Source: Bacillus weihaiensis (GTDB lineage Bacteria > Bacillota > Bacilli > Bacillales > Bacillaceae). Taken from it: a stretch of 64,000 bases of DNA. The stretch is from NCBI RefSeq assembly GCF_001889165.1, contig NZ_CP016020.1, positions 3,198,501 through 3,262,500 on the forward strand, given 5' to 3'. Both the position numbers and the translations under genes were made by a program. The stretch's first letter is position 1. Each line of letters begins with the position of its first letter. Below the pieces are notes generated by a model. The model was not told the origin of the DNA. It saw only the letters and a program-made list of their open reading frames with translations, and did no database searches. Below, in pieces: positions 13,894 through 64,000 of the stretch.

Positions 13894-14577
13894 ATGTTTG
13901 CAGATGAACGCGCAGAACGAATTATAGGAATCTTAACCGATTCCTTTTTTCCTATTCTAAAAGCAGGGATTATGTTTACCATTCCGTTAACCCTGATCTC
14001 TTTCATATTAGGGTTACTTTTAGCATTCCTGACAGCTTTAGCACGAATCTCTTCTATTAAACCACTTGTAGCACTTGCAAAGTTCTATGTATGGATTTTT
14101 AGGGGAACACCTTTACTCGTACAATTATTTATACTCTTTTATGGATTACCTAGTTTAGGAGTAACGCTAGATCCTTTCCCTGCAGCAGTAATTGGATTTA
14201 CTCTGAATAAGGGTGCCTACAGCTCTGAAATTATTCGAGCTTCTATCCTTTCCATTCAAAAAGGTCAATGGGAAGCAGCTTTTTCAATTGGAATGACTAG
14301 AGGACAAGCAATGCGAAGAATCATTCTTCCACAGGCAGTTCGAGTGAGTATTCCACCACTTGGAAACTCCTTCATCAGTCTTGTTAAAGATACGTCCCTT
14401 GCTGCCACCATTACAGTAACGGAACTCTTTCAAAAAGGACAGCAAATTGCTTCAGTGACATACGAGCCACTTTGGCTTTATATTGAGGTTGCTGTTATTT
14501 ATCTCATGTTTAGCACCGTCTTATCTTTCGGCCAATCAAAGCTAGAGCATCGCTATGAACGAACAGTTGCCAAGTAG
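13894..14577 (+). CDS. polar amino-acid ABC transporter, permease
   Basis: Membrane permease of the HisMQ/GlnP type, about 227 residues. It has several transmembrane segments and the cytoplasmic EAA loop, visible as [20 protein letters not shown] around residues 130-150, which docks with the ATPase. The sequence [20 protein letters not shown] before it is characteristic of the family. The start chosen is the ATG ten bases after AGGA; TTG at 13885 lies too close to that site. It lies between the binding-protein and ATPase genes of one operon. Confidence 0.88.
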
Positions 14578-29247: not shown

Positions 29248-30804
29248 TTATTTTTGTAAAACTTGATCCTTTAAGGCCCTTCTTAAAATCTTCCCTGTCG
29301 TATTTTTCGGTAGCTCCTCTAAAAATTCAATTGAGCTTGGAATTTTATATTTAGCTAAAGACTCCTTACAATAGTGAAGCAAGTCAGCCTCTGTTAAATC
29401 TTTATTTTTAGAAACAACAAAGCATTTAACGGCCTCTCCAAAATTAGGGTCCGGCACCCCTAACACCGCAACCTCAACAACATCTTCATGATTGTATAAT
29501 ACTTCTTCAACCTCTCTTGGATAAACATTATATCCACCAACAAGGATCAAATCCTTCTTACGGTCAACGATGTAAAAATACCCATCTTCATCTTGTTTAG
29601 CCAAATCACCCGTATGCAGCCAGCCATTGCGAATTGTATGGGCTGTCTCCTCAGGCATATTATAATACCCCTTCATCACATTCGGTCCTTTTACTACGAG
29701 CTCTCCTACTTGATTTGTTGGAACCTCTTCTCCCAATTCATTCACAACTTTATTCTCAACGTTCACGATGTTTGTACCGATTGAACCAGGCTTCCTTGGA
29801 CGATCCAAAGGATTAAAGCAAGTCACTGGAGAGGCCTCTGACAGTCCATAGCCTTCTGAAATCATCACCTTAAACTTTTGTTCAAAGCCTTTTAATAGGG
29901 CGACAGGCATGGACGCACCACCTGAGATACATAGTCTTAATGTCTTCAAATCTTCTATACTTGCATTCTCATACTGAAGCAGAAAATTGTACATGGTAGG
30001 TACACCTGCGAAAACTGTGGCTTCATATTGCTTTACTAAGTTAAAGATTCCTTCTGCACTAAATCTCGGAACAATAAGAAGTGTTGCACCATTCATAAGT
30101 GGTGCATTTAAAGCAACAGTTAAACAAAAGACATGAAACATCGGTAAAGTTGTTACAACTATGTCTTCATTGTTAATCTTTAAGTAATTCGCTGTATCAA
30201 TAGCATTACTATACAAGTTTTTATGAGTTAACATCGCACCTTTTGGCTTGCCTGTCGTACCAGATGTATACAAAATAACTGCTACATCATCCTCCTGTAA
30301 ATGTGGACCACCAAATTCGACAGACCCTAACTCAAGCAATCTTGTAAACGATTTCAACTTTGTGTAAATAGAAAGCTGTGTTACATCCACACCTTGCTTT
30401 TGATCACTTGGTGGTGTCTCACATGAAATAATATGTCCTACCGTCGGTAATACGTGATTTAGCTTTTCAAATAGTGGTACAAGTAAATCAAGTGTAATCA
30501 CTGCTTTTACATCACCATTGTTAAGTATATAAGCAATCTCATCTGGTGTATAAATTGGATTAATCGGAATAACGGTCGCACCTGCGCGAAGAGCTCCATA
30601 TAAGGAAATAACATAATATGGTGTGTTCCCTAAAACGAGCGCTACATGATCTCCCTTGGTAATCCCTAACTCCGTTAAACTACTTGCAAACTTATTGATT
30701 GCTCCTTCTAGCTCATAATACGATGTTTCCTTGCCCTCAAACACAATAGCTGGTTTTTTACCATGCTCCTGTACCGTTTGTGATAAACGTGAAGATAAAT
30801 TCAT
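29248..30804 (-). CDS. lcfB: long-chain fatty acid-CoA ligase
   Basis: An AMP-forming acyl-CoA synthetase that activates fatty acids with ATP and CoA. The P-loop-like motif [16 protein letters not shown] is near residue 160, [10 protein letters not shown] near 305, and [24 protein letters not shown] near 390-415; the catalytic lysine is in TTGKILRR near the C-terminus. The start chosen (ATG 30804) has GGAGGGG in front; the longer frame adds 50 residues with no support. Length 518 and context beside lplJ-yhfI fit B. subtilis LcfB (YhfL). A FadR-like operator lies 20 bases upstream. Confidence 0.9.
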
Positions 30805-34690: not shown

Positions 34691-34740
34691 TTGGAAACGT
34701 TTTCACAAACTATTATATGTAAATATCAAATTAATTTCAA
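34691..34740 (-). promoter_or_regulatory. promoter and LacI/CcpA-type operator of the regulator gene
   Basis: On the minus strand TTGAAA (34735-34740) and TATAAT (34712-34717) are 17 bases apart. Directly downstream, TGAAAACGTTTCCAA (34691-34705) matches the cre/LacI-family palindrome with the central CG. It would block the promoter if bound, either by the encoded regulator or by CcpA. Confidence 0.75.
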
Positions 34741-49802: not shown

Positions 49803-50318
<516 letters not shown>

Positions 50319-50324
50319 TCGTTG

Positions 50325-50352
50325 ATCCTCTGCAAAGGTGCAGGGGATTTTT
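50325..50352 (+). terminator. terminator of hmoB
   Basis: ATCCTCTGCA and TGCAGGGGAT pair (one G-U) around a four-base loop, followed by TTTTT. Confidence 0.9.
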
Positions 50353-50705
50353 CCTATCTTTCAGCTGTAACGGCATAATATAACATTCCAAGTAGCTTTT
50401 TATCCCATGGACTACAGTGTCCAATAAGATATGACAGTATTTCCTTGGAAATGACACAAGCTTTCTACAAAACATTCCCCTATTTTTCTACATCCTACTT
50501 ATGTTCATTCTCCTAAAAGCATATACATGTTTCCCCTTTATCGTAATATTTTAACATAAATCGACAAATACCGTCATGATTGAGGAATTAGATCGTATCG
50601 ACATGTTAATTTTTCTTGATCGTTTATCTTCTATTTAGAGGGGGGATTTTCTAAATCAGATCGGTAAATTCACTAATTAACTTCTGACGTAAGCCACACT
50701 CGCAG
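50353..50705. other. gap between hmoB and the anchored glucanase gene
   Basis: No gene with a ribosome site or recognisable product was found. The sequence is AT-rich and lies between two terminators of convergent genes. Confidence 0.45.
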
Positions 50706-50732
50706 AAAAAGGATTCCCTTAATAGAGAACCC
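50706..50732 (-). terminator. terminator of the anchored GH16 gene
   Basis: GGGTTCTC pairs with GGGAATCC (two G-U pairs) around TATTAA, followed on the minus strand by five Ts. Confidence 0.75.
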
Positions 50733-50752
50733 CATTAATAAACTAGATTTAA

Positions 50753-53700
50753 TTAGTTCATTCTTCTTTTTTTAACTAGTAAAAATCCACCAATTCCACA
50801 TATAAGAATACCAACTAGCAATCTCTCGAACATCCTTGTCGCTGTTTGAGGCAATTGATTTTCACCATCACCTTCTACTTTATCATAAGCTGGTACCTCA
50901 TCTGACCCATTTTTCGAATCATCACTAGTCGGAGATAGTGACTCTTTTTCTTCTGATGTTGCCGGATGGTTTTCATTGTCAGAACTAAACTCGTTGCTAG
51001 AGTCAGAGTTATCTCCTTCATTATTCATAGCATCATCATCTTGTTCTTTATCTTTTATCTCTTCCTCCGTACTCTCATCCTCTTCTGTAGGAACATCTTC
51101 TTCAGAAGCAATGGCAGGCTCGATTGAAATGTTATCCAGATATATTTTGGTTGCTGTATTCCCACCTTCAATATTACCAAGTTCAAATACAAGCTTTCCA
51201 TCATCAAATGATTGTTCTGTCATTTCAAATGTGTAGCTATATGTTGTCATTTCGTTCGTTAAGTCAAATGTTTTTGAAGGAGCAAATGGAACAAACCAAG
51301 GGTCCTCTGCTAACTCTTTTCCTATATTTACATTCAATTTCCTTGCTTCATCCACTTTTCCGTCAAACGATACTTTGTATGTCTCACCTTGTTTGAACTG
51401 AATTCCCTTTTGAAAAATTTGTGGTGAATAGGAGGTGGCTCCTGTCTTTAGTAAATCAACAACTAAAGTACCGTCATCAATAGTGGCATTTCCTTGAGCA
51501 AGCCCACTCCATTGATCACCCCACCATTGGTTCCAATGCTTTAATCCTTCATCAAACGTTCCGTTATCTAACTCTGGTGTCATTTCTTCCTCAGAGGTTG
51601 GAGGATCTTCTTGTGTTTCCTCTTCAGCCAAGGCAATTTTTACATGATCAATATAAAGATCATGTGGAACCCCACCGTATTTTCCCATTTGAAACTTTAG
51701 GTTCAATGTGTCATTTTCTGGCATCACCAACTTATATTGAACGTTTTCCATTTCCTCTGTTACATCTACAGTTTCAGAGAGATATCTTTTATATTCATTG
51801 TTTTCTAAGGAGAATATGATCTTTCGATTTAAGGTTGAACGGATATCAAAAGAAATGACATACTCTTCCCCTTCACTGAATTTCAATCCTTTTTGTTCGA
51901 GAATAACACTCCATTCTTCATTACCTTGATTCGTTATGGAAGCTTTAGCTTCACCATTTTCGTGACTAATTTGTGCGTTTGCATCAAAATGAACATAGGG
52001 TGTCCATCCATCTAGATTTTCCGTAAACTCACCGTTAAGTACCTCAGGAGCTACGAGTTTGCGATCTGTATTTAGTAATGTTACATCATCTATGAAAATA
52101 TCTCCTTGATTTCCACCTAAATAGAATATCAGCTGACCTTCACTGTCTTCATATGACTCTGGAATCAAAAACTCAACTGTTTTTTCTTCCATCTCAGTTG
52201 TTAGATTAACAGAATCTAAATGATAGCTTTGCAGCCCATCTTTCCCTCTAATATCCACTTCCAATGATCTGGATTGATCAGACTTTGCCTTAAAGGTTAA
52301 TTTATAGGTGTTCCCCTTAGCAAATTGAATTCCGCTTTGCTTCAGCTTAATATCAGACGATGTTTCGCCACCATTGATAATGGTTGCTTTAAAGTTTCTT
52401 ATTTCTTCATTTACCGATCCTAAAGCTTCTGCATTTCCTTCTGAGAGAAAGTCCCAGTACGTCATTCTATCTATCTTGCCTTGGTCAAAAGTGCCGTTAT
52501 AGATATGATTCCCATCTGGAAGTGGCTCTTTCAATACATCATGATCTTGTTGTCCCGTTATGTCTTCTACCTTAACATTCCCGATCCAAATTGGGCTTGT
52601 CCCATTTGCTCCCATATTAAACTCAAGTCTCGCTGCAAGGTCCGTTTCATGGGTCATATCAAAAGTAAAGGAATAGGTTTTCAAAGTACTCGTTAACTCA
52701 ATTGCTTCTTCATTTGAGTATTTCGTCCACCCTCGATCTGCTCCACCGGATACCTTTACCTTCATATTTCGGGTGCTGGTGGATTTTGCGTCAAAGCTTA
52801 CCTTATATGTTGCTCCCGTTGCAGCTGGTATTTGTTGGATTTTCTGCAATGACCATAGAGCATTCCCAGGATTCTCTATATCAACCTTTGCAAAAGTCTG
52901 GTCATTTAGTTGTGTAGCTGAGATTTGACCTTTTCCACCAAAACTAGGTAGTTGGACAAAATTCCAATAAGTAGAATCTAATGCTTCATCTTCTTCTATC
53001 ACTTTAGTAAAACCCTTTTCATATTGTCGGTCATAGATAAAGTTTCCGTCCTCTAATGGTTGTTTCGCATGTGGTGGTAATTCAACTTTTTCTACATTTG
53101 GCTCAACAGGAGTTTGATAGTCTCTTCCTTCGAGCTCATATACGCGGACATAATCTATTTCCATTTCACCTGGAAACGAGGTTGACTGGTCAGGATTCCC
53201 TCCATACCAGCCTCCTACAGCCAAGTTTAAAATCATGTAGAATTCTTGATCAAATGGAGCCGGAAACGAATAATTTGCTGCGTTGTTTTTGCTTTTACTG
53301 TACCAATTATCTAGCGTTTGATAGAGGTTTCCATCAACATACCAACGAATTTCACCTGGCTCCCATTCAATAGAATAGGTATGAAAGTCAGTAATTGATT
53401 CTCCCTCTGGAAAATGATATGATGCTCCCTTATATACATTATTAGGATAAACATCACCATAATGGATTGTTCCACCGATTTCATCCGTTTTCGCTCCTGC
53501 AGCTTCCATAATATCAATCTCTCCTGATGCAGCCCAACCACCATATACGTCATTTTCAGGGAGCAACCAAAATGCAGGCCAATATCCTTGCCCTTCTGGG
53601 AGCTTTATTCTCGCTTCGAATTTTCCATATTTCTTACTAAACAATCCTTTTGTTTTTAATTTAGCTGAAGTGTACTCATAAGAGCCAAATTCATCCTCTG

Positions 53701-54004
53701 TTTTCTCTTTTACCGCTTTTATTACGAGCTTCCCATCTCTAATAAAAGAATTTTCAGCCGAATCAGTGTAGTATTCAAGTTCATTGTTACCCCATCCCGG
53801 AGCAATACCGTTTCCATCTCCATCTACAATCCAATTCCCTATATCATATGTCCATTTAGATTTGTCAATGTGAGTACCATCAAACTCATCTGCCCATACT
53901 AAATTCCAATCATCTGATTGATTTTGCTCTGCATTTTCAACTGCCATTCCGGCATGAGGTAAAATAAGTAATACACATAACAAAATAGCTAGTAGTTTTT
54001 TCAA
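50753..54004 (-). CDS. secreted LPXTG-anchored GH16 beta-1,3-glucanase with four CBM modules
   Basis: An extracellular laminarinase-type enzyme fixed to the cell wall, 1083 residues. A signal peptide (1-24) follows a TTG start behind AAGGGGG; the longer frame to 54079 adds unsupported residues. The GH16 domain (about 30-290) has the catalytic motif GEIDIMEAAG near 160-168 and WPAFWLLPEND before it. Four consecutive jelly-roll modules of the CBM4/9 type follow (about 310-960), each ending near an IDDV/LDNI-type strand. Then come an acidic Ser/Glu/Asp linker, the sorting motif LPQTA (1051-1055), a hydrophobic segment and KKRR. A cre-like site lies upstream. EIDIME is the laminarinase form rather than that of lichenases. 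It probably starts glucan breakdown for the downstream operon. Confidence 0.92.
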   Translation of the reverse strand: MKKLLAILLCVLLILPHAGMAVENAEQNQSDDWNLVWADEFDGTHIDKSKWTYDIGNWIVDGDGNGIAPGWGNNELEYYTDSAENSFIRDGKLVIKAVKEKTEDEFGSYEYTSAKLKTKGLFSKKYGKFEARIKLPEGQGYWPAFWLLPENDVYGGWAASGEIDIMEAAGAKTDEIGGTIHYGDVYPNNVYKGASYHFPEGESITDFHTYSIEWEPGEIRWYVDGNLYQTLDNWYSKSKNNAANYSFPAPFDQEFYMILNLAVGGWYGGNPDQSTSFPGEMEIDYVRVYELEGRDYQTPVEPNVEKVELPPHAKQPLEDGNFIYDRQYEKGFTKVIEEDEALDSTYWNFVQLPSFGGKGQISATQLNDQTFAKVDIENPGNALWSLQKIQQIPAATGATYKVSFDAKSTSTRNMKVKVSGGADRGWTKYSNEEAIELTSTLKTYSFTFDMTHETDLAARLEFNMGANGTSPIWIGNVKVEDITGQQDHDVLKEPLPDGNHIYNGTFDQGKIDRMTYWDFLSEGNAEALGSVNEEIRNFKATIINGGETSSDIKLKQSGIQFAKGNTYKLTFKAKSDQSRSLEVDIRGKDGLQSYHLDSVNLTTEMEEKTVEFLIPESYEDSEGQLIFYLGGNQGDIFIDDVTLLNTDRKLVAPEVLNGEFTENLDGWTPYVHFDANAQISHENGEAKASITNQGNEEWSVILEQKGLKFSEGEEYVISFDIRSTLNRKIIFSLENNEYKRYLSETVDVTEEMENVQYKLVMPENDTLNLKFQMGKYGGVPHDLYIDHVKIALAEEETQEDPPTSEEEMTPELDNGTFDEGLKHWNQWWGDQWSGLAQGNATIDDGTLVVDLLKTGATSYSPQIFQKGIQFKQGETYKVSFDGKVDEARKLNVNIGKELAEDPWFVPFAPSKTFDLTNEMTTYSYTFEMTEQSFDDGKLVFELGNIEGGNTATKIYLDNISIEPAIASEEDVPTEEDESTEEEIKDKEQDDDAMNNEGDNSDSSNEFSSDNENHPATSEEKESLSPTSDDSKNGSDEVPAYDKVEGDGENQLPQTATRMFERLLVGILICGIGGFLLVKKRRMN

Positions 54005-54064
54005 ATGATAATCCCCCTTAGTGTGTGATTGACATGTACACTTCCTCACTTTCCACCTTTCATC

Positions 54065-54078
54065 TGTAAGCGTATACA
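54065..54078 (-). promoter_or_regulatory. cre-like catabolite-control site upstream of anchored GH16
   Basis: TGTAAGCGTATACA matches the CcpA cre consensus TGWAANCGNTNWCA with one difference. It lies about 60 bases before the TTG start, where CcpA repression is usual for extracellular glucanases. Confidence 0.6.
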
Positions 54079-54233
54079 AATTTACGCAAACAAAAACTGA
54101 CTTGCAATACTAGCTTATCTTTTTTTAAGTTTGATATTTAGGCTCCTTTTTTTATAAACGGTTTCTATATTTTAGATTTTCAGCTTATACCTCCATTAAA
54201 TTTGTAATTATTCTATGCTTTGACATTATTCCC

Positions 54234-54264
54234 CCGGAAATGACAGGATGTCCAACCGGAAATG
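54234..54264 (+). promoter_or_regulatory. direct repeat upstream of the transporter gene
   Basis: CCGGAAATG occurs at 54234-54242 and 54256-54264, 22 bases apart, about two helical turns. TTGACA-like sequence precedes it. This is the layout of response-regulator or activator sites. The transporter gene starts 82 bases further on. Confidence 0.5.
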
Positions 54265-54346
54265 TTTTCTCTCCTCTCACATCTTGTTTTATTTCTACAT
54301 ACAGTATTAAAAATTAGCTATAGGCTATTGCTGAGGGGTGTCTTAA

Positions 54347-55741
54347 ATGGCAATTGATATTACACTCATCCATTGGATCTATATATCCTTTATCCTCGCC
54401 GTCATTGGATTTATGTTATTTCGACGAGATACAACGATCGTATGTGTGGTAGGCATTCTTACACTTGCAGCCACTTCTACCCTATCCGTTAGTGCTTCTA
54501 TAACAAGCCTTTTCAACAGCTTTATCTTTGCAATTACTGAATTATTACCAACGATTTTAGTTATCTCTATAATCGTTGCTATGAGTAAAATTTTAACGAA
54601 GTCAGGTATTAATGAGGTTATGGTTGCTCCATTTTCTAAAATCATTAAAACCCCAACTACTGCTTTCTGGACAATAGGATTACTTATGATGGTCATTTCC
54701 TTCTTCTTTTGGCCATCACCGGCTGTCGCTCTAATAGGAGCTGTATTATTACCGGTTGCTTTAAGAGCGGGTCTTCCTGCACTAGGTATAGCTGTTGCCA
54801 TGAATTTATTTGGCCATGGAATAGCTCTTTCAGGTGATTATATCATTCAAGCTGCTCCAAAAATCACAGCAGATGCTGCAGGCATACCTGTTCTAGATGT
54901 AGTGAATGCAAGTATTCCACTCGTTATCACGATGGGGCTTGTGACGACGATTACCGCGTATATTATACTAATGAGAGATCTCAAAAAGAATAAAACATAT
55001 ACATCCACATCCACATGCTCATCTTCTCCGATTGAGGAAACACAAGAAGGTCTCATGTCCGAGAGAATGAAAAAGATTCTTGCCATATCTATCCCCATAA
55101 TCTTTGTTTTAGATGTTGTAGTCATGTTCACCTTAAATTTACAGGGTGGTGACGCCACTGCATTAATTGGAGGTACAGCTTTACTCATTTTAGTCGTGAC
55201 AACATGCTTTGCACACAAAAAAAGAGGACTCGAAGAAACAACAGGTTATTTAATTGAAGGCTTCCAATTCGGCTTTAAAGTATTCGGACCTGTCATACCA
55301 ATTGCAGCATTTTTCTATTTAGGAGATGCAGGATTTTATTCAATTGTAGGTGATTACCTTCCTGAAAATTCTGAGGGGATCGTGAATGATTTAGGGGTTG
55401 CACTTGCAAATGGTGTGCCTCTAACGAAAGAGGTTGGCGTCATTACCTTAACTGGTGTAGGTGTCATTACCGGTCTAGATGGATCCGGTTTTTCAGGGAT
55501 CTCACTTGCAGGTTCCATCGCCCAGCTTTTCTCAACTGCAATTGGTGCTAGTACAGCTACCTTAACCGCCTTAGGTCAAGTAACGGCAATTTGGGTAGGA
55601 GGAGGAACACTAGTCCCTTGGGCTCTCATTCCAGCTGCTGCTATTTGTGGAGTTGATCCTTTTGAACTTGCAAGAAAGAACCTTCTACCTGTCTCTATAG
55701 GATTGGTCATTACGACAATTGTTGCTATGTTTTTGGTTTAG
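54347..55741 (+). CDS. putative polytopic membrane transporter (YhfA-like)
   Basis: A 464-residue integral membrane protein with about eleven to twelve hydrophobic segments and a polar central loop (about 210-240) with RDLKKNKTY. ATELLPTILVISI-like and SPAVALIGAVLLP stretches place it in the ion transporter superfamily; position after the hem-pbpF-hmoB block suggests an orthologue of B. subtilis YhfA, by recall only. The substrate is unknown. It diverges from the anchored glucanase and faces the GH30 gene, so a role in uptake of a glucan product is possible but unproven. It starts behind GAGGGG. Confidence 0.7.
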   Translation: MAIDITLIHWIYISFILAVIGFMLFRRDTTIVCVVGILTLAATSTLSVSASITSLFNSFIFAITELLPTILVISIIVAMSKILTKSGINEVMVAPFSKIIKTPTTAFWTIGLLMMVISFFFWPSPAVALIGAVLLPVALRAGLPALGIAVAMNLFGHGIALSGDYIIQAAPKITADAAGIPVLDVVNASIPLVITMGLVTTITAYIILMRDLKKNKTYTSTSTCSSSPIEETQEGLMSERMKKILAISIPIIFVLDVVVMFTLNLQGGDATALIGGTALLILVVTTCFAHKKRGLEETTGYLIEGFQFGFKVFGPVIPIAAFFYLGDAGFYSIVGDYLPENSEGIVNDLGVALANGVPLTKEVGVITLTGVGVITGLDGSGFSGISLAGSIAQLFSTAIGASTATLTALGQVTAIWVGGGTLVPWALIPAAAICGVDPFELARKNLLPVSIGLVITTIVAMFLV

Positions 55742-55758
55742 TAGATCAAGAGATATAG

Positions 55759-55883
55759 AAAAAGGCTGTGACAAAACAAAGAGCCACGCACCATACGATC
55801 CAATCTATTGTGCGCACTAGATCAATTAGTGCGTATACATAGTTGTGACGGTAAGGTGCCTGGCACTTCTGTCCCAGCCTTCC
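55759..55883 (-). repeat. dispersed palindromic repeat, long form (copy D)
   Basis: The outer arms AAAGGCTGTGACA and CTGTCCCAGCCTT pair with one mismatch; inward are CCACGCACC and GGTGCCTGGCAC blocks, then a middle of about 70 bases like that of copy B, including a GCGCACTAGATC/AATTAGTGCG palindrome. It lies between the convergent transporter and GH30 genes and can terminate both. Confidence 0.85.
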
Positions 55884-55888
55884 TTTTT

Positions 55889-57217
55889 TTATATAACTAA
55901 TGTCGTAATTGAATGCTCTGGAAGATGCACACTGCTCTGCATTCCATTCACTTCAACCGTCATGTTTTCTTCCTTATCCGTTTCATTCAAAAGGACGATT
56001 GCCAATGTAGCATCTTTATTTCTGAATGCCACAGCTTGAATTGATTCAGTTGAAAGCTGGTGATGTACACGCACAGCCCCTGGTTTAATATATTTACTAA
56101 AATGACCAATATAATAATATGAACTATTATAGTGAACTTCACCCGTTTTCGTATCGACAATAATAGGGGCATCACAGAAGTTTCCTACATGATTTGGACC
56201 ACCTTGTTCATTCAGCACAATATTCCAATCAATCCAGCCTTCTAACCAATTATTTAAATCTCCTAGGATATTGCGTGCATATCTTTCTCCTGTGTGCCAG
56301 GCACCTAGTTGTACGCCACCTTCAATACAGCCTTCGGTAAATAATAGGTGCTTATCTGGAAAATCTCTATGAATTTTTGATAGATTCTCAAACTCCTCAG
56401 ATACATACCAATGCAAGCCTGTACCCCAAATGTACTTTGCTGCTTCTTTATCTGAAAGAATGACTTTTGCACGTTCATAGGCTACGTCACGATTGTGATC
56501 CCATATGACGATTTCTTTTTCACCAAGTCCTTCTTTTTCTAAAATAGGACCTAAATAATGTTTAACAAAGTCCCTCTCTTCTTCTGCTGTATAACGACAG
56601 GAATCCCAAACCTGTGTTGCTTCTGGCTCGTTTTGTACAGATACTCCCCAAATCGGAATCCCCTGTTCTTCCATTGCTTTTATATATTTTGCATAATACG
56701 TTGCCCATGCTTCACGATATTCTTCCTTTAATTTACCACCATGATTCATATCGTTATTCGTTTTCATCCAAGCAGGTGGGCTCCATGGAGATGAGAGAAT
56801 CGTTAACTCATCTCCTCTAACCTTTACAGCATCCTTTATTAATGGAAGGACCCATTTATGTTCACGTTCAATAGAGAAGGTTTTTAGTTCCTTATCGCCT
56901 TCCTCTACATACGTATAATTTTCTAAAGAAAAATCACAGCTATGAATATGCGTTCTTCCAAGAGAATACCCTAGTCCCTTTTCTTGGTCAAAATAACTCT
57001 CAATCACTTTTAATCGATCTTCCTCAGATAAATGTGATAGTGTGTAAGCAGCCGCTTCGGTAAATGCACCACCGAACCCCATTACCGTTTGATAGACTTT
57101 TGTTTGATCAATTGTTAAGGAAGCATTATGGTTCATTTCACTTTTTTGAAAAGTTTGCTCCTTCTTAGCAAAACGCTCCTCTTTATTTTGTGCTGTTTGA
57201 ATCACTTGCATGTTCAT
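55889..57217 (-). CDS. GH30 family beta-glucanase/glucosidase, cytoplasmic
   Basis: A 442-residue GH30 enzyme without a signal peptide. The fold start MGFGGAFTEAAAYTL is near residue 45, the acid/base in SVQNEPEA near 200, and the nucleophile in LFTEGCIEGG near 293, all expected for the clan. GH30 includes beta-1,6-glucanases and glucosylceramidases; in a laminarin operon beta-1,6 branch removal is the best guess. It lacks the bacterial GH30 xylanase context. The start is the ATG eight bases behind GAGG. It is the last gene of the four-gene operon, 17 bases after the phosphorylase. Confidence 0.86.
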   Translation of the reverse strand: MNMQVIQTAQNKEERFAKKEQTFQKSEMNHNASLTIDQTKVYQTVMGFGGAFTEAAAYTLSHLSEEDRLKVIESYFDQEKGLGYSLGRTHIHSCDFSLENYTYVEEGDKELKTFSIEREHKWVLPLIKDAVKVRGDELTILSSPWSPPAWMKTNNDMNHGGKLKEEYREAWATYYAKYIKAMEEQGIPIWGVSVQNEPEATQVWDSCRYTAEEERDFVKHYLGPILEKEGLGEKEIVIWDHNRDVAYERAKVILSDKEAAKYIWGTGLHWYVSEEFENLSKIHRDFPDKHLLFTEGCIEGGVQLGAWHTGERYARNILGDLNNWLEGWIDWNIVLNEQGGPNHVGNFCDAPIIVDTKTGEVHYNSSYYYIGHFSKYIKPGAVRVHHQLSTESIQAVAFRNKDATLAIVLLNETDKEENMTVEVNGMQSSVHLPEHSITTLVI

Positions 57218-57234
57218 TTCTTTCACCTCGTCGA

Positions 57235-60200
57235 TTAGTCTAAGTACACGTCGATTTCTTTTATCTCTTTGTTTCGAATTTTCAATGCATATTCTTCCTT
57301 TAACGTTGTTGAATGTATTTCGTAATTTTTGTCACCTGCATGTACTACATACTTTGAAACGGTTACAGCATCAAAACCGAAAGTAGCCTTTCTACTTGGA
57401 TTATGATATGTCACCTTAATCTCTCCCAAGAACATGAAGCTTACTTGATCATTCTCATCAAATAACCACTCTGGAAGGATAGGTTGTAATGTTAAGGAAA
57501 GCTTCTTGTTCTCAAGTGAAAATACTTGTTTTCCCATCATCATTTTTTGCCAAATACTTAAAAACTCTGCTGTTGTTCCACTTAAGCGTGCAACAAACCC
57601 TTGTCCATGTACAGAAGGATCTGGGTTTACACTACTAGCAATAAATGAAGAATTTTCAAGTACACTTCTTCCATAAGTTTCTGGATCCATAAATGGAGGA
57701 AGAGCTGTTTTTAAATCCTCAAAAAACTCATCGTAAAGACCAACCTTTAGCATACTTAATAAGTATTTGAATTCCATATGCATAAAGATTGATTCTCGTT
57801 CTAACCAACCAGGAGTAAACGCTCTTGCCCTTCCAATTTCAAATGTTTCATTTTCTATTGAAACAGACGTTTTATACATCTTTAAATCTTGGTCAAATAA
57901 TGCTGAATTCTTTACTTGTTCGTGAATGCTTACAGCCTCATCCTGATGTTTTATGGTCTTTAATGCTCGAGCAGGTCCTTCTAAATAATGTGGCAATGTA
58001 GCAAGCTTAAAGGATTTCACGTGAACAAGCGGTAGCCCTTTTTCATTAACTTCACCAGTCACTTCAAAATCATCTGCTTCATAGTAAAGATACGTTAAAG
58101 GTAAGCCTTCTCCGATGCTATTAGCTTTTTCGATTCCTATATTCACTTTATTCGAGAATTGACTCAACACCTGAGATAATTCCTGAGTGGATAAAACAGT
58201 CTCGTCACCACTAATCGTTTCCTTTACCTGTAACCTATAGTTTTCTCTCGCTGTTGAAACCATATCCCAATAATGAAAATCTGAAAGTTGACCATTTGAC
58301 AGCTTTTCTACTGCGCTAACAATTTCTTTTGTCAGCGTCACGACTTCATTTGGCAACGAAATATCAATAGAGTATGCTTGGCTATGCTTTACAAGGAAAT
58401 CTAACACTCTCTTTAACTCAAATGTTTCACTCATGGCAGAACCAAATACACCAGGTAATCCATTCATTGAGTCATTCCAGCCAGGCTTGTTCGCTTCCAT
58501 TTCTATACCTAACCCCAATGGATCAAGTGATGAAAACTTTGTAACTGCGAGTATAAACAGCTTACTAAATAATGTTGTTTTATATTTCTCGCCGTTTTTT
58601 GTTACGAGCCAGCTACTAGTAGACGTATAACTCTCTTCAAGGGCATTGTATTGTCTTACAGAGCCATTATTTAGTACAAACTTCTCTGATCTAGGCTTAA
58701 CAAAAGCTGGGCTGCTGAAGAATAAGTACTCTTTTTCATCAAAAAGTAACGATTGTTGACGATCCGGATAAATAGAAAGGTAATTTTGAATTAAATCCAA
58801 ATTATATGTCCAGTGGTCAATCCAATACCCTTCTCCAAACTCCGCTTCCATATGCTGTTCACTTTTCGTTAGGACCTTCTTCAATAATTCCTCTAACGGA
58901 ATGGTTAATTCGATTTCTTTATCATGAATGGTTTGTAATAAATCACCAGGTGTAAACTTTCCAGACAATTTAGTTTGAACGAATTGTGCCTCCTCTTTTG
59001 AGGGGATGACAGAATGGATCCAATCCACATTTGTTGGTTCCTTTAATTCGAAGCTTGATCCCTTCACCACTAATGGGTTATATCCATCTATTTGAATTAA
59101 GCTCATAAATAATTTGATGTTATAATCGCCAACCTCTGGATGGAAATACACATCGTTTCGTCTATTTTGATTTACGTCTCGGAAATTTCCGTTTCCTTGT
59201 GAATAAAACTCAGGAACAAGAGAGAAGAAATTATAGTCTCTTTCAAGATCACCATGCTTTCTTGAATAGATGTAGTAGACAAATTTCTTATCCTTTTCTT
59301 CAGTTTCTAAGAAAATCGGATAGCCACCTCGTAAAATGTTATCTAAGTAGCTTTGTTTACAGTATGCATCAAATAAAGGAATAGCCGTTTTTGTTGCAAC
59401 ATCTTGAGTAATACCGTTAACTAATGTTACTGCTTCCTTGTATTTTCTTTCCATATACTTCTTGCTACTTAGCTCGTTCGATCTTTTGTTAATGATATCG
59501 ATATCATTTACATGTCCAATCATGGTATGAAGAGTGACGACTTCCTCTTTCTTCAATGTGCTAGAAAACCCAGAAAAACCAGAAGGTACTTTATTAGCTG
59601 TCAGTTGATTTTTCTTTAAAAGCTCTTGAATTGATTCCTCACGAAAGGCATTTGGGAAAGACCACGCTGTATTCGTTCCAAAAACAAGGTTTGCATCCAC
59701 AATTGGTGATAGTAGATTTCCGTCTTCAATAAAGCTTAAATAAAAATGACCTTTTGTTATTTCCTCCACTTCAGCCGTATCATTTGTGGAAGAACGAACA
59801 CGGTAATATGGAATTTGTTCCTCTCTATTAAAAACATCCATCCAGCTCTTTAGCGTATTTCCAACTGCTTTATATGCTGCGTCATCTACTCCAAAGGGAA
59901 TAATAGCTGGAAGACCATCAATGACCTCTATTTGAATAGATTCATTAGATAGGTTTTCAACCTCTACTTTTCGAATGAGAGCAGCGAAATTTTCATTAGG
60001 TAAGGTAAAATATGTGACGATTGTTTTTAATTTAAACTCAGTGTTTATCTCTTCGATCTTCAATTCATTTTCTTTAATAAACATTTTTCGTTTATGAGTG
60101 GTGGATGTAGACGAAAAAGGTTCAAAAATATGTTTATGATTCAACTTAATAAATGTACGAAACCCATTAGTCGCTACACGTTGATACGCTTGGTTCGCAG

Positions 60201-60396
60201 GGAAAAACTCTGTAATGGCATGATTCTTATCCTTTACACCAAAGCTCACCATTCCTTGCCCTCTGTTCACGTAAAACGACCACATTGGTACACCCATTTT
60301 CCCTGCTATCCCTGGCAAGAAGCTAGAGAATGTCTTGGCTTCATCATAGCTTTCTATGACGAAGTACCCTTCTTCATTAAAATGATAGTTCTGCAT
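57235..60396 (-). CDS. large glucan phosphorylase, probable GH161 beta-1,3-oligoglucan type
   Basis: A 1053-residue cytoplasmic protein resembling the GH94/GH149/GH161 phosphorylase group, which cleave beta-glucans with phosphate to yield glucose 1-phosphate. It begins with a beta-rich N-terminal half containing SFYVNRGQGMVSFGVKDKNH, typical of this group (the substrate-facing start without a cyclic-glucan glycosyltransferase domain). The central helical barrel includes GEGYWIDHWTYNLDLIQNY near 540-560 and NDSMNGLPGVFGS near 650. Length above 1000, the Firmicutes origin and laminarin neighbours favour GH161, the beta-1,3-glucan phosphorylase family. The start is the ATG nine bases behind GAGG. 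It lies between GH1 and GH30 genes in one operon. Confidence 0.75.
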   Translation of the reverse strand: MQNYHFNEEGYFVIESYDEAKTFSSFLPGIAGKMGVPMWSFYVNRGQGMVSFGVKDKNHAITEFFPANQAYQRVATNGFRTFIKLNHKHIFEPFSSTSTTHKRKMFIKENELKIEEINTEFKLKTIVTYFTLPNENFAALIRKVEVENLSNESIQIEVIDGLPAIIPFGVDDAAYKAVGNTLKSWMDVFNREEQIPYYRVRSSTNDTAEVEEITKGHFYLSFIEDGNLLSPIVDANLVFGTNTAWSFPNAFREESIQELLKKNQLTANKVPSGFSGFSSTLKKEEVVTLHTMIGHVNDIDIINKRSNELSSKKYMERKYKEAVTLVNGITQDVATKTAIPLFDAYCKQSYLDNILRGGYPIFLETEEKDKKFVYYIYSRKHGDLERDYNFFSLVPEFYSQGNGNFRDVNQNRRNDVYFHPEVGDYNIKLFMSLIQIDGYNPLVVKGSSFELKEPTNVDWIHSVIPSKEEAQFVQTKLSGKFTPGDLLQTIHDKEIELTIPLEELLKKVLTKSEQHMEAEFGEGYWIDHWTYNLDLIQNYLSIYPDRQQSLLFDEKEYLFFSSPAFVKPRSEKFVLNNGSVRQYNALEESYTSTSSWLVTKNGEKYKTTLFSKLFILAVTKFSSLDPLGLGIEMEANKPGWNDSMNGLPGVFGSAMSETFELKRVLDFLVKHSQAYSIDISLPNEVVTLTKEIVSAVEKLSNGQLSDFHYWDMVSTARENYRLQVKETISGDETVLSTQELSQVLSQFSNKVNIGIEKANSIGEGLPLTYLYYEADDFEVTGEVNEKGLPLVHVKSFKLATLPHYLEGPARALKTIKHQDEAVSIHEQVKNSALFDQDLKMYKTSVSIENETFEIGRARAFTPGWLERESIFMHMEFKYLLSMLKVGLYDEFFEDLKTALPPFMDPETYGRSVLENSSFIASSVNPDPSVHGQGFVARLSGTTAEFLSIWQKMMMGKQVFSLENKKLSLTLQPILPEWLFDENDQVSFMFLGEIKVTYHNPSRKATFGFDAVTVSKYVVHAGDKNYEIHSTTLKEEYALKIRNKEIKEIDVYLD

Positions 60397-60432
60397 ATAT
60401 GTCACCCTCTGTATGGTAATTTGTCTGCTTTA

Positions 60433-61782
60433 TTAAATGAGAATCTTTTCCAAGGAACGATTCTTAATAATTTCTGCATATCGAAAACCTGTATTTTTCA
60501 ATGTTCTTTTTTGCGTAAGAAAATCCACATATGTGATTCCAAAGCGCTTGTCATAACCAAATGCCCACTCAAAATTGTCAAGAAGGGACCATAAATAATA
60601 GCCTGCGATATTCATATTATCCTCATTAAGCTCAGCAACTGCTGTTATATGCTTTTCAACATAGCTCTCACGACCAACGTCGTACACCTTTCCATCTGGA
60701 GCTACCGTATCATCAAAGGCTGCACCATTTTCGGTAATATAGATTGGTAGCGTGGTATATTCCTGACGTAAACGGTGGATGAGCTGCTTGAATTCGTTAG
60801 GTGAGATATCCCACCCCATTCCCGTTTTATCATAATCAGAATAGGCCGATGTAAATAAGAAATCTGAAGCTGACGTGAATTCAACAAGGGATCGGTTGTA
60901 ATAATTAATTCCAAAGAAATCACACTCAATGGAGATTTTCTTCATATCTCCCTCTTTGATAAAGGAGTAATCATGAACATATTTTGAAAACAGATTCATC
61001 ATATCCAAAGGATAATTCCCTTTAAAAATCGGATCTAGGAACCATCTGTTCGTATAGCCGTCTGCATTGTTAGCTGCAAGCTGATCATTCATAGAATCGC
61101 TTGCAGGGTATACTGGTGATAAATTTAATGTAATTCCTATAGGTGTTGTCGATTGACGTTTGTTTTTTAAATAGTCCACTGCTTCTCCATGTGATAGTAA
61201 AATATGGTGAACCGCCTTTAATGCCTCTTCCATATTCTTATGACCCGGTGCATGTACACCTTGATGATAGCCTAGAAATCCTGCACACCATGGTTCATTA
61301 TGTGTAATCCACATATCCACCTGATCATCTAATTCCTCGAAGCATTTTTCAGCATATTCCATAAACCACTTCACAGACTCTCGATTTGTCCAGCCCCCTT
61401 GTTCATGTGCCCACATTGGCAAATCCCAGTGATAAAGTGTAACAGCTGGCTTAATATTAGCTGAATGTAATAACGAAATGAGCTTTTTATAAAATTCCAT
61501 GCCATCTGGGTTATATTTTCCCTTTTCAGGAAAAATACGTGGCCATGCAATAGAAAAGCGATACGAGTCAACCCCTAATGTCTTAAGAATCTCAACATCT
61601 TCTTCATAGCGGTGATAGTGATCACAAGCAATATTTCCGTTATCCATATTCCACACCTTACCAGGTATGGAGGAAAATTCGTCCCATATGGAAGCCGTTC
61701 TCCCATCCTCATTCCATGCACCCTCAATTTGATAAGAGGATGTTGCCGTTCCAAAAATAAAGTCTTTTGAAAATCTAGTCAT
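60433..61782 (-). CDS. GH1 beta-glucosidase, cytoplasmic
   Basis: A 449-residue GH1 enzyme. The N-terminus has FIFGTATSSYQIEGAWNEDG, the acid/base is in THNEPWCAG near 165, and the nucleophile in YITENGAAFDD near 352. The aglycone end has NFEWAFGYDKRFG, the free-glucoside form; 6-phospho-beta-glucosidases differ there. It therefore fits substrates imported without phosphorylation. No signal peptide. It starts three bases after the GH16 stop, with GAGGTG inside that gene's end, so translation is coupled. Confidence 0.93.
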   Translation of the reverse strand: MTRFSKDFIFGTATSSYQIEGAWNEDGRTASIWDEFSSIPGKVWNMDNGNIACDHYHRYEEDVEILKTLGVDSYRFSIAWPRIFPEKGKYNPDGMEFYKKLISLLHSANIKPAVTLYHWDLPMWAHEQGGWTNRESVKWFMEYAEKCFEELDDQVDMWITHNEPWCAGFLGYHQGVHAPGHKNMEEALKAVHHILLSHGEAVDYLKNKRQSTTPIGITLNLSPVYPASDSMNDQLAANNADGYTNRWFLDPIFKGNYPLDMMNLFSKYVHDYSFIKEGDMKKISIECDFFGINYYNRSLVEFTSASDFLFTSAYSDYDKTGMGWDISPNEFKQLIHRLRQEYTTLPIYITENGAAFDDTVAPDGKVYDVGRESYVEKHITAVAELNEDNMNIAGYYLWSLLDNFEWAFGYDKRFGITYVDFLTQKRTLKNTGFRYAEIIKNRSLEKILI

Positions 61783-61785
61783 GTC

Positions 61786-62862
61786 TTACACCTCTGTATG
61801 TTTTTGATAAACTTTTATATAATCGACAATCATTTGCTGGGGAAAAACAGTTGTTTTATCAGGATAGCCTGGCCATTTCCCTCCCACCGCGAGATTGAGT
61901 TGGAGATAAAAATCTCGATCAAACGGTGCATATTTTTTTCCAGCCTTTGTTCGCTCACTATTTGTAAACCACTCTGTTTGCTTAGCAAACAAAATGTCAT
62001 CTACATACCATCTAAATTCTCCGGGCTCCCATTCTACCGTGAATACATGAAAATCATCAGAAAATTTCTCGTTTTTTGGGAGCTTATACGCTTCTCCAGT
62101 ATAGGTATGTGGATTTCCATAATGAATGGTTCCATGAACCGTTGACATGTCATGTCCGATTAATTCCATGATGTCAATTTCTCCACAAGCCGGCCAGCCT
62201 GAATATGTCTCCATGTCACTTGGCATCATCCAAATTGCTGGCCATATCCCTTGACCCTCAGGTAATTTAGCTTTAATAGAAAAACGACCATATGTCCAGC
62301 TTGCTTTCCCTTTTGTTGTTAGCTTAGCTGATGTATAGCGGTTCCCTTCATACCCTTCTTCATGTGCTTCCAAAATAAGCTGTTGATTTTGGATTCTTGC
62401 ATTTTTTTCTCGGTTCGTATAATATTGCCATTCTTCATTTCCGAACCCATTTCCACCATCAACAAAATTCCATTTTGACTCATCAATACGAGCCTCAGTA
62501 AATGTATCTTCCCACACTTCAATCCATGAGTGAGGTGTTATGTCATCATCTGTAAGCGTCACCATAACAGCTTGTAAAATACAATCTTTTTCGTCTGCTA
62601 AAAAAAGAGTGATATATTTATTGATCGTTGAATCGACTCCTGTAATATCAGTCCCAGACTGATAAGGGTTTGTGACAGTACGGTCGGTCGGTACTTGGTC
62701 TCCAGCTTTTATACGTAAAGGGTAAGAAGAAATCTTTACAGCCAGATGTTCACCAGATTCTACATCTGCCTGAATTTTTACTGCCCCTTCCCTTTCACCC
62801 TTACTAACTTCATAGTGTAGGAGGTTCGAGTGCTCATTGTGTAATGTTCGATCTTTTTCCAA
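61786..62862 (-). CDS. cytoplasmic GH16 beta-1,3-glucanase
   Basis: A 358-residue GH16 enzyme without a signal peptide, first gene of the glucan operon. It starts at TTG behind AAAGGAGAGGG. An N-terminal domain of about 115 residues (containing SGTDITGVDSTINKYITLFL) precedes the catalytic domain, where CGEIDIMELIG near 227-233 holds the nucleophile and acid/base. The catalytic half resembles the anchored GH16 (WPAIWMMPSD, FYLQLNLAVGG). Lack of a leader suggests it cuts imported oligoglucans inside the cell, unusual for GH16. Confidence 0.9.
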   Translation of the reverse strand: MEKDRTLHNEHSNLLHYEVSKGEREGAVKIQADVESGEHLAVKISSYPLRIKAGDQVPTDRTVTNPYQSGTDITGVDSTINKYITLFLADEKDCILQAVMVTLTDDDITPHSWIEVWEDTFTEARIDESKWNFVDGGNGFGNEEWQYYTNREKNARIQNQQLILEAHEEGYEGNRYTSAKLTTKGKASWTYGRFSIKAKLPEGQGIWPAIWMMPSDMETYSGWPACGEIDIMELIGHDMSTVHGTIHYGNPHTYTGEAYKLPKNEKFSDDFHVFTVEWEPGEFRWYVDDILFAKQTEWFTNSERTKAGKKYAPFDRDFYLQLNLAVGGKWPGYPDKTTVFPQQMIVDYIKVYQKHTEV

Positions 62863-63019
62863 TGTTCCCTCTCCTTTTATCTCGTAATTTGTGCTTATCT
62901 AATTGTACCTTTAACCCTCCGTCTCTATGAGTCAGTATATTTTGTATTCGGTTACAGAATTTTAGAAAGTATGTGTTAGCTTAGAACAATGCGTTCATGG
63001 ACTTTCTAAATTTCATACA
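62863..63019 (-). other. promoter region of the glucan operon
   Basis: No gene. On the minus strand TATACT near 62938 could be a -10, but no clear -35 at the right distance was found, and no cre match was seen. An activator may be needed. Confidence 0.4.
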
Positions 63020-63065
63020 AAAAAAGAGACTTATTTAGGTTATTAGCTCTAAATAAGTCTCTTTA
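63020..63065. terminator. strong bidirectional-type terminator
   Basis: A 16-bp perfect stem (AAAGAGACTTATTTAG and its complement) with a ten-base loop, followed by A/T-rich runs on both strands. Confidence 0.9.
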
Positions 63066-63253
63066 TAAAGGCTCTTTTTCGTGCTTTGTTGCTTTTTACT
63101 AGTAATAACAAAGAATAAAGTCATCATTCATACGGTCTATCTGGGTAAACCTGAAAGAAAGAGAGAAGATCCAGTCCTTAGGGTTTCTTAACAAAAGCAG
63201 TGATCTATACGAAAGCCGCCTAATGAATACTACCTACCGGTTCGTCACATTTA
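63066..63253. other. gap without recognised gene
   Basis: Between the terminator and the end of the 111-residue gene. No frame with a ribosome site was found. Confidence 0.4.
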
Positions 63254-63589
63254 TTAAAACAGTGAAAGCTGTAACTCTTCTTCATGTTCTTCTTCTTTTT
63301 TCACTTGCAGCTTTTCTTTGTTTTCTGCTTCTTCTTGTTTTATGTTTAATTTATCAGTTTCGTTCACTTCATAGATGCAGTCAACTTGGTCGCGACTAAT
63401 AGCGTTAATTGTACCACGGTGATGTAGTTCCTCTAGATAACTTACAACATCGACATATAGTTTTGGTCTGCCTGTCGAGAATGTTTTACTAGTAAAACCA
63501 TGCTCCTCGATTAAGAAATTGCACAATGTTGTAGCAGAAACCTGCTTATTGTTCTTCAAATGATGATAAATAATACTAGATATATCCAT
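63254..63589 (-). CDS. small acidic protein with C-terminal clamp-binding-like motif
   Basis: A 111-residue protein of unknown function. Residues 1-70 form a compact helical domain of winged-helix appearance (SIIYHHLKNNKQVSATTLCN, then YVDVVSYLEELHHRGTINAI). Residues 75-105 are Lys/Glu-rich and probably coiled. The protein ends exactly in ELQLSLF, which matches the QL(S/D)LF pentapeptide by which polymerases and repair proteins bind the DnaN sliding clamp. It starts behind AAGGGGGG. A role at the replication fork is inferred only from this tail. Confidence 0.7.
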   Translation of the reverse strand: MDISSIIYHHLKNNKQVSATTLCNFLIEEHGFTSKTFSTGRPKLYVDVVSYLEELHHRGTINAISRDQVDCIYEVNETDKLNIKQEEAENKEKLQVKKEEEHEEELQLSLF

Positions 63590-63737
63590 CCTGTCCCCCC
63601 TTATTGTCCATCACTTTATTTGTTTCTACTTATTCACCAGAGATAAACAAGATCATAATAAAAATAATGATACTTTTTATATGATCAAATGTAAAACGGT
63701 AAAGATAAGTAAAGTAAAGGCAAGGATTTAGGATACG

Positions 63738-64000
63738 CTATTTATTCACTATATCATCAATCTTCCTTAACTCTTCCGCGGTAAACGCCACTTGATCTAA
63801 AGCAGCCACATTTTCCTCCAGCTGGCTTACTTTACTGGCACCAATTAAGGCAGATGTTACATCAGCCTCTCTTCTTAATACCCAAGCTAACGCCATTTGC
63901 GCGAGTGATTGTCCTCTTTCTTGAGCCAGTGTGTGTAAGCTTTGGACTTTCACCATCACTTCACTTGTTACATCTTCTTCGTTTAAGAAGCTCTTAGATT
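63738..64000 (-). CDS. aldo/keto reductase, C-terminal fragment
   Basis: The end of an aldo/keto reductase; the rest is beyond the window. The stretches SLAQMALAWVLRR and SALIGASKVSQLEENVAAL hold the NADPH-binding region typical of the family, especially the YghZ/potassium-channel beta-like branch. The enzyme would reduce an aldehyde or ketone; the substrate is unknown. Confidence 0.85.
   Translation of the reverse strand, partial: SKSFLNEEDVTSEVMVKVQSLHTLAQERGQSLAQMALAWVLRREADVTSALIGASKVSQLEENVAALDQVAFTAEELRKIDDIVNK

Follow-up and report, generated by a model that had tools for sequence, protein, structure and literature searches.

The laminarin utilisation cluster of Bacillus weihaiensis Alg07 and a putative importer encoded beside it

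The stretch of Bacillus weihaiensis DNA analysed here (the window, 64,000 nucleotides; coordinates are window positions unless a C1 or L label is given) holds at 50753..62862 five genes for the use of laminarin, a β-1,3/1,6-glucan. With a probability of roughly 93%, these genes belong to the laminarin utilisation cluster already published for strain Alg07, which we read as a five-enzyme pathway with a neighbouring importer. The locus of this strain is already known and is not a new discovery. Our additions are the adjoining importer and regulator genes, a probably cytosolic site of debranching, a probable two-transcript layout, and empty or partial sites in related genomes. An earlier note on this DNA had proposed a five-gene glucan locus, and all five genes were indeed found at the positions it gave. 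Its proposal of a laminarin-type substrate is supported by the enzyme families and by the published laminarin activity of both GH16 enzymes in crude E. coli extracts (PMC5128808).

Correspondence with the published locus

In the sections of their paper on which we draw, Zhu et al. (2016) describe a gene locus made up of Bw3265 (GH30), Bw3266 (hypothetical protein), Bw3267 (GH1) and Bw3268 (GH16), and name Bw3263 as a further GH16 (PMC5128808). The families and gene order in the window agree with Bw3263 and Bw3265 to Bw3268, with no gene difference, and the one number left between Bw3263 and Bw3265 would be taken by the membrane protein at 54347-55741 (Table 1). Quantitative reverse-transcription PCR showed Bw3263, Bw3267 and Bw3268 to be up at 24 h relative to 12 h on kelp powder (PMC5128808). 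The paper that founded family GH161 (Kuhaudomlarp et al. 2019) places the B. weihaiensis protein in that family and terms its locus laminarin-induced (PMC6484121), whereas the 2016 data were obtained with kelp powder, not pure laminarin (PMC5128808). The two accounts differ from ours in the steps around uptake. According to the 2016 model, pullulanases debranch the glucan, glucose enters by the phosphotransferase system (PTS), and di- and trisaccharides are split by an intracellular β-glucosidase; Bw3266 is left hypothetical, and the sections at hand mention no importer for the locus (PMC5128808). The importer genes may nevertheless already be drawn in Figure 7 of PMC6484121, and ATP-binding cassette (ABC) and two-component genes are named in the legend of Figure 4 of PMC5128808 for the loci shown there. 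In NCBI taxonomy, the name Bacillus weihaiensis leads to Metabacillus harenarius.

Table 1. Features of the laminarin cluster and its surroundings (Bw numbers by gene order and family; RBS, ribosome-binding site; SBP, solute-binding protein; AKR, aldo/keto reductase)
Feature	Position	Strand	Remarks
Outer laminarinase (Bw3263)	50753..54004	-	signal peptide, GH16, four CBM_4_9, LPQTA tail
cre-type site TGTAAGCGTATACA	54065..54078	+	upstream of outer GH16 start
Multi-helix membrane protein, 464 aa	54347..55741	+	between outer GH16 and GH30, opposite strand
Palindromic dispersed repeat, ~130 nt	55748..55890	.	between GH30 and membrane gene; -59.4 kcal/mol, z -6.4
GH30, predicted cytosolic exo-β-1,6-glucosidase (Bw3265)	55889..57217	-	Pfam; catalytic Glu pair
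GH161, predicted β-1,3-glucan phosphorylase (Bw3266; 'hypothetical protein' in 2016; by order)	57235..60396	-	solved GH161 matches
GH1 β-glucosidase, predicted cytosolic (Bw3267)	60433..61782	-	Pfam GH1; TIGR03356
Inner GH16 laminarinase, predicted cytosolic (Bw3268)	61786..62862	-	N-terminal SbsC-type domain; TTG start with RBS-like stretch
cre-like site, one mismatch, weak	62943..62956 (L002 1444-1457)	-	upstream of inner GH16
Terminator-like hairpin	63023..63064	-	16-pair stem and T run, -18.6 kcal/mol, z -4.4; between DUF3895 and inner GH16
DUF3895 small protein, 111 aa	63254..63589	-	Pfam
AKR1, 3' part	63738..64000	-	continues past window; full gene L002:2239-3234
YesN, YesM, SBP, two permeases	C1:3263264-3270621	-	beyond window end
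SBP and permeases	C1:3266737-3270621	-	4.2-8.1 kb past window end

Enzymes of the cluster

The family assignments were checked with Pfam, NCBIfam and solved-structure matches, and GH16, GH1, GH161 and GH30 all hold. The outer GH16 occupies an open reading frame (ORF) of 1,108 aa (50753-54079), its likely start being the TTG at 54004, which has an RBS-like stretch. Pfam placed GH16 and four CBM_4_9 stretches on it above cut-off. The sequence GEIDIME, an instance of the ExDxxE motif that we take to be catalytic in GH16, is present in both GH16 proteins, and laminarinases were among the best solved-structure matches of both. The outer enzyme is probably anchored to the surface by a sortase, for which the genome gave four matches. 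The earlier description of an anchored extracellular GH16 with four binding modules stands for the signal peptide, the catalytic domain and the modules; the sorting tail scores under the cut-off of its model (see below). On the inner GH16, Pfam found the GH16 domain and an N-terminal SbsC-type domain (PF18316), again above cut-off. This protein aligns nearly over its full length with longer Chengkuizengella GH16s having hydrophobic N-termini (L022, L031), which suggests that it arose by loss of a signal peptide. The inner GH16s of nine other loci (L010-L013, L018, L019, L043, L050, L072) differ in being 265-277 aa long and lacking the N-terminal domain. The GH1 protein scored 589.3 bits on TIGR03356, against a cut-off of 478.5, and carries the THNEP and ITENG motifs.

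The very large phosphorylase reported before proved to match solved GH161 proteins almost from end to end. Its ORF (57235-60405) measures 1,056 aa, and the ATG at 60396 is preceded by an RBS-like stretch. Residues 14/15-1001 matched 9h8v and 9qqk with 903 and 902 bits, respectively, the latter entry being named GH161; Pfam gave zero matches for this protein. Assignment to GH149 was rejected, as NF058639 scored 109.3 bits against a cut-off of 1150. When genome contigs were searched with the GH161 protein, 136 relatives came up, the best 80 loci of which were compared. Genes were counted in these loci as complete ORFs of at least 150 aa at score thresholds; the flanks are short in 25 of the 80, and counts are lower bounds where a contig end cuts a gene. 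The query carries KPGWND, and KPGW[NY]D recurs in 79 of the 80 loci; its Asp is presumably the conserved acid, a role that we carry over from GH94. Phosphate-dependent action on β-1,3 chains with acceptors of a degree of polymerisation of 2 or more has been shown for PapP (PMC6484121), and phosphorolysis by the Alg07 protein is predicted from its sequence.

The GH30 ORF spans 55889-57226, with an RBS-like stretch before the ATG at 57217. The protein passed the Pfam cut-off, and its catalytic Glu pair aligns with those of 2wnw, which we take to be SrfJ, and human glucosylceramidase; solved structures were matched at 319 bits (2wnw), 278 bits (human glucosylceramidase) and 214 bits (5ngk). On the NCBIfam endo-1,6-glucanase model it reached 316.5 bits, under the cut-off of 700. 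Among the GH161 loci, QNEP was present in 50/50 GH30 proteins, as was the second-Glu motif (FTEGC and two variants; 50/50). Removal of β-1,6 branches is the predicted activity of GH30 in Alg07.

The four inner enzymes had been described as lacking signal peptides and as separated by 3, 36 and 17 bases. A hydropathy test found no hydrophobic N-terminus on any of the four products, and the gap lengths are correct if GH161 begins at the ATG at 60396 and GH30 at the ATG at 57217. Among the GH161 loci, a hydrophobic N-terminus was seen in 0/50 GH30, 1/80 GH161 and 1/22 GH1 proteins, as compared with 14/17 outer GH16 proteins and 12/17 SBPs; this is a simple hydropathy measure and not a trained signal-peptide predictor, and non-classical export is possible. 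Inner-type GH16s had such an N-terminus in 2 of 12 cases, both of them long multi-domain Chengkuizengella proteins. Debranching probably takes place in the cytosol. Since GH30 has no hydrophobic N-terminus and a cytosolic endo-acting GH16 is encoded beside it, the gene set suggests that long, still branched oligosaccharides are imported.

A putative importer beyond the window end

The earlier note had recognised no transporter of the ABC type in the window and regarded uptake as the missing step. This was not borne out. Upstream of the enzymes and on the same strand, the next genome stretch (L002) encodes AKR1, a YesN-type response regulator, a YesM-type kinase, an SBP and two permeases. A sugar ABC transporter, for which the note had suggested searching the rest of the genome, is thus encoded a few kilobases beyond the window end (Table 1), and the idea of a missing transporter was rejected. 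The only binding-protein-dependent permease listed inside the window, at 14011-14556, lies about 36 kb away. We regard the system as a CUT1-type ABC importer, probably for the oligosaccharides released from laminarin. The YesM/YesN pair likely controls it in response to a signal presumed to be sensed by YesM. Importer, regulator and carbohydrate-active enzymes stand in one cluster, the arrangement by which a Gram-positive polysaccharide utilisation locus is recognised.

No ATPase gene was seen beside the SBP and permease genes. The MalK-type OB domain had two matches in the genome, one in an ATPase encoded beside a permease and the other near no listed permease; this orphan ATPase passed the UgpC model with 500 bits (cut-off 432). 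MsmX is an ATPase shared among importers, and the importer is probably energised by the orphan MsmX/UgpC-type protein. Most GH161 loci are likewise reported to lack an ATPase gene (PMC6484121).

In the pathway that we propose, the surface GH16 with its four binding modules would cut laminarin, and the CUT1-type importer, energised by the orphan ATPase and controlled by YesM/YesN, would take up the oligosaccharides. Inside the cell, the second GH16 would shorten long chains, GH30 would remove β-1,6 branches, GH161 would phosphorolyse the chains to glucose 1-phosphate and a disaccharide, and GH1 would hydrolyse what remains. Conceivably, though at odds clearly below even, this amounts to 'selfish' consumption of laminarin by a Gram-positive bacterium, in which an ABC system with a large SBP imports long branched chains while endo-cleavage, debranching and phosphorolysis are all cytosolic. 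The question of uptake left by the earlier reader is closed by the importer encoded next door. The published models are questioned on one point: if debranching is cytosolic, as is probable, the oligosaccharides that pass the membrane would be branched. The uptake size, the tolerance of branching and the two-component control of a Gram-positive laminarin importer thereby become testable in a cultured strain.

Weighing of the evidence and of alternative explanations

Several observations weigh against our reading of the cluster. The Bw numbers were assigned by gene order and family, not by sequence. The published induction compares 24 h with 12 h on kelp powder, not pure laminarin with glucose as the earlier note had suggested, and the laminarin genes were unchanged in RNA-seq at 12 h (PMC5128808). 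The LPQTA tail of the outer GH16 scored 26.2 bits on the protein and 31.5 in the genome search, both below the LPXTATN model cut-off of 32. One genome of the same genus (G018) has the importer-regulator module at another place, where none of the 13 ORFs of at least 200 aa in the 20 kb fetched is a glycoside hydrolase, and another (G012) has it with the inner GH16 only and no GH161 match in the genome. Because both carry the module without the full enzyme set, neighbourhood is not proof of the substrate of the transporter. In addition, an SBP of the importer type was present in only 17 of the 80 GH161 loci (17 of the 55 with full flanks), and many other GH161 loci have more distant permeases.

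One alternative is that the importer and YesMN serve another sugar, and that laminarin is hydrolysed outside the cell and enters largely as glucose via the PTS. This would be close to the 2016 proposal of PTS glucose uptake with an intracellular β-glucosidase (PMC5128808), and it would fit both the module without glycoside hydrolases in G018 and the terminator-like hairpin that parts the importer genes from the enzymes here. Against this stand the four oligosaccharide enzymes without export signals, which need an imported substrate, and the presence of the same module, with SBPs 79-83% identical, beside the same enzymes in eight other loci (L009, L010, L013, L018, L019, L043, L050, L055); we consider this explanation very improbable. 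There is an even fainter chance that a secreted GH30 removes the branches of laminarin outside the cell and leaves linear oligosaccharides as the only imported form, as proposed for this strain in 2019 on the basis of PSORTb localisation (PMC6484121). Our GH30 carries no hydrophobic N-terminus and neither does any of 50 homologues in GH161 loci, with the outer GH16s as a positive control in the same test, and the cytosolic endo-GH16 in the same gene run points to the import of long chains. A further alternative leaves the enzymes as they are and changes the source of the glucan, the natural target being fungal or other cell-wall β-1,3/1,6-glucan instead of algal laminarin. The enzyme families are silent on the source, and the full cluster also occurs in Mesobacillus, Cytobacillus and Bacillus pinisoli, which we take to be not mainly algal. 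Both GH16s, however, act on laminarin (PMC5128808), and we hold a cell-wall target to be unlikely. The reading as a laminarin cluster with its own importer is the one that we retain.

Conservation and history of the site

The full set (permease B, SBP, YesM, YesN, inner GH16, GH1, GH161, GH30 and outer GH16) was found in 7 of the 80 GH161 loci; the locus of Bacillus pinisoli (L009) also has it, although its flank ends within the permease genes. Taken singly, GH30 was present in 50 loci, GH1 in 22, the SBP of the importer type in 17, AKR1 in 13 and the inner-type GH16 in 12. In B. pinisoli, Mesobacillus (for example L013 and L055) and Cytobacillus oceanisediminis (L018), the permeases, SBP, YesM, YesN, AKR1 and all five enzymes lie on one strand. 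The clusters of these relatives differ from that of Alg07 in having no membrane protein between GH30 and the outer GH16, and in all but L009 AKR1 follows the enzymes. A record titled Chryseobacterium sp. ISL-80 (L010) carries a Bacillaceae-type cluster and is probably mislabelled or contaminated.

The GH161 clusters described in 2019 likewise combine GH161 with GH1/GH30 and ABC importer genes, mostly without an ATPase, and B. weihaiensis is among the examples; in contrast to our result, its GH30 is predicted there to be secreted (PMC6484121). The Formosa laminarin locus shares an exo-β-1,6-glucosidase GH30 that debranches laminarin, a GH16 and a phosphorylase family near uptake genes, and differs in its Gram-negative TonB-receptor/SusD uptake, its GH17 enzymes and the use of GH149 instead of GH161 (PMC6246565).

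Of 41 related genomes, the window's own included, 5 have GH161. Two genomes of the same genus (G001 and G004) have the flanking genes, with AKR1 and AKR2 adjacent and the laminarin genes absent from the site; a different GH161 cluster, at 53% identity, lies in another part of G001. At the corresponding site, G012 has the importer, the regulators, AKR1 and the inner GH16, and lacks GH1, GH161, GH30 and the outer GH16. AKR1 is kept at the site in relatives without the cluster there. In a tree, AKR1 grouped with its counterparts from L009, G012, G001 and G004 (95/94) and stood away from those of six relatives that lack GH161 (98/95). This grouping is compatible with G001 and G004 having lost the cluster and does not prove it, because the tree has no root and several weak forks; three of its branches are long. 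Stretches L129, L130 and L135 hold the empty and partial laminarin sites of same-genus genomes.

Transcripts and putative control sites

Because the hairpin at 63023..63064 lies between the two gene sets, the transport and regulator genes are probably transcribed separately from the enzyme genes. A terminator scan with loops of 3-8 only did not list this hairpin. The spacing of the four inner genes, together with the terminator-like hairpin upstream of them, argues for their co-transcription. The palindromic repeat downstream of GH30 could end transcripts from both sides; it looks like a MITE (miniature inverted-repeat transposable element) or a repetitive extragenic palindromic (REP)-type element and occurs in at least 40 places of the genome at 85% identity or more, itself included (40 scored of 125 candidates). 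No Rfam family was found at gathering scores in 50000-64000, and scans for sigma-70 promoters gave no excess over shuffled sequences.

Catabolite-responsive element (cre) sites were sought with a consensus sequence. Exact matches in the window numbered 3, against 0.15 expected; one lies upstream of the outer GH16 start, and the other two are at 30343-30356 and 34692-34705. For sites with one mismatch, L002 gave 4 against 1.75 expected, including the weak one upstream of the inner GH16. A first, differently written consensus missed the site before the outer GH16: it gave no site in L001 and a single one in L002, which falls within the SBP gene, a yield near chance.

Neighbouring genes

The membrane protein at 54347-55741, which the earlier note does not mention, matched no Pfam or NCBIfam family (best Pfam score 7 bits, E 3.3), and a single-sequence AlphaFold model of it had a mean pLDDT of 40.7 and was useless. 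It was matched in 30 of the 41 related genomes, its own included; 26 of these 30 have no GH161 match, and by ORF comparison and tblastn it was found in 0 of the 80 GH161 loci. As a widespread protein absent from these loci, it was rejected as an uptake route, and we judge it not to be part of the system. A tblastn search for the DUF3895 protein at E 1e-3 found nothing in the 80 loci.

A YghZ-type AKR1 was present at 400 bits or more in 13 of the 80 loci, 11 of them Bacillaceae-type. Possibly AKR1 handles a non-glucose chain end, for instance the mannitol that terminates M-type laminarin, a role that we consider improbable; a literature search found no paper joining 'aldo keto reductase', laminarin and mannitol. 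AKR1 was also weighed as a chance neighbour: its grouping in the tree and its presence in these loci speak against this, whereas matches to it of about 70% or more occur in many genomes without GH161 too. In Bacillaceae, in G033 and in two Halanaerobiales loci (L082, L087), YghZ-type reductases stand within or next to GH161 clusters, in differing arrangements.

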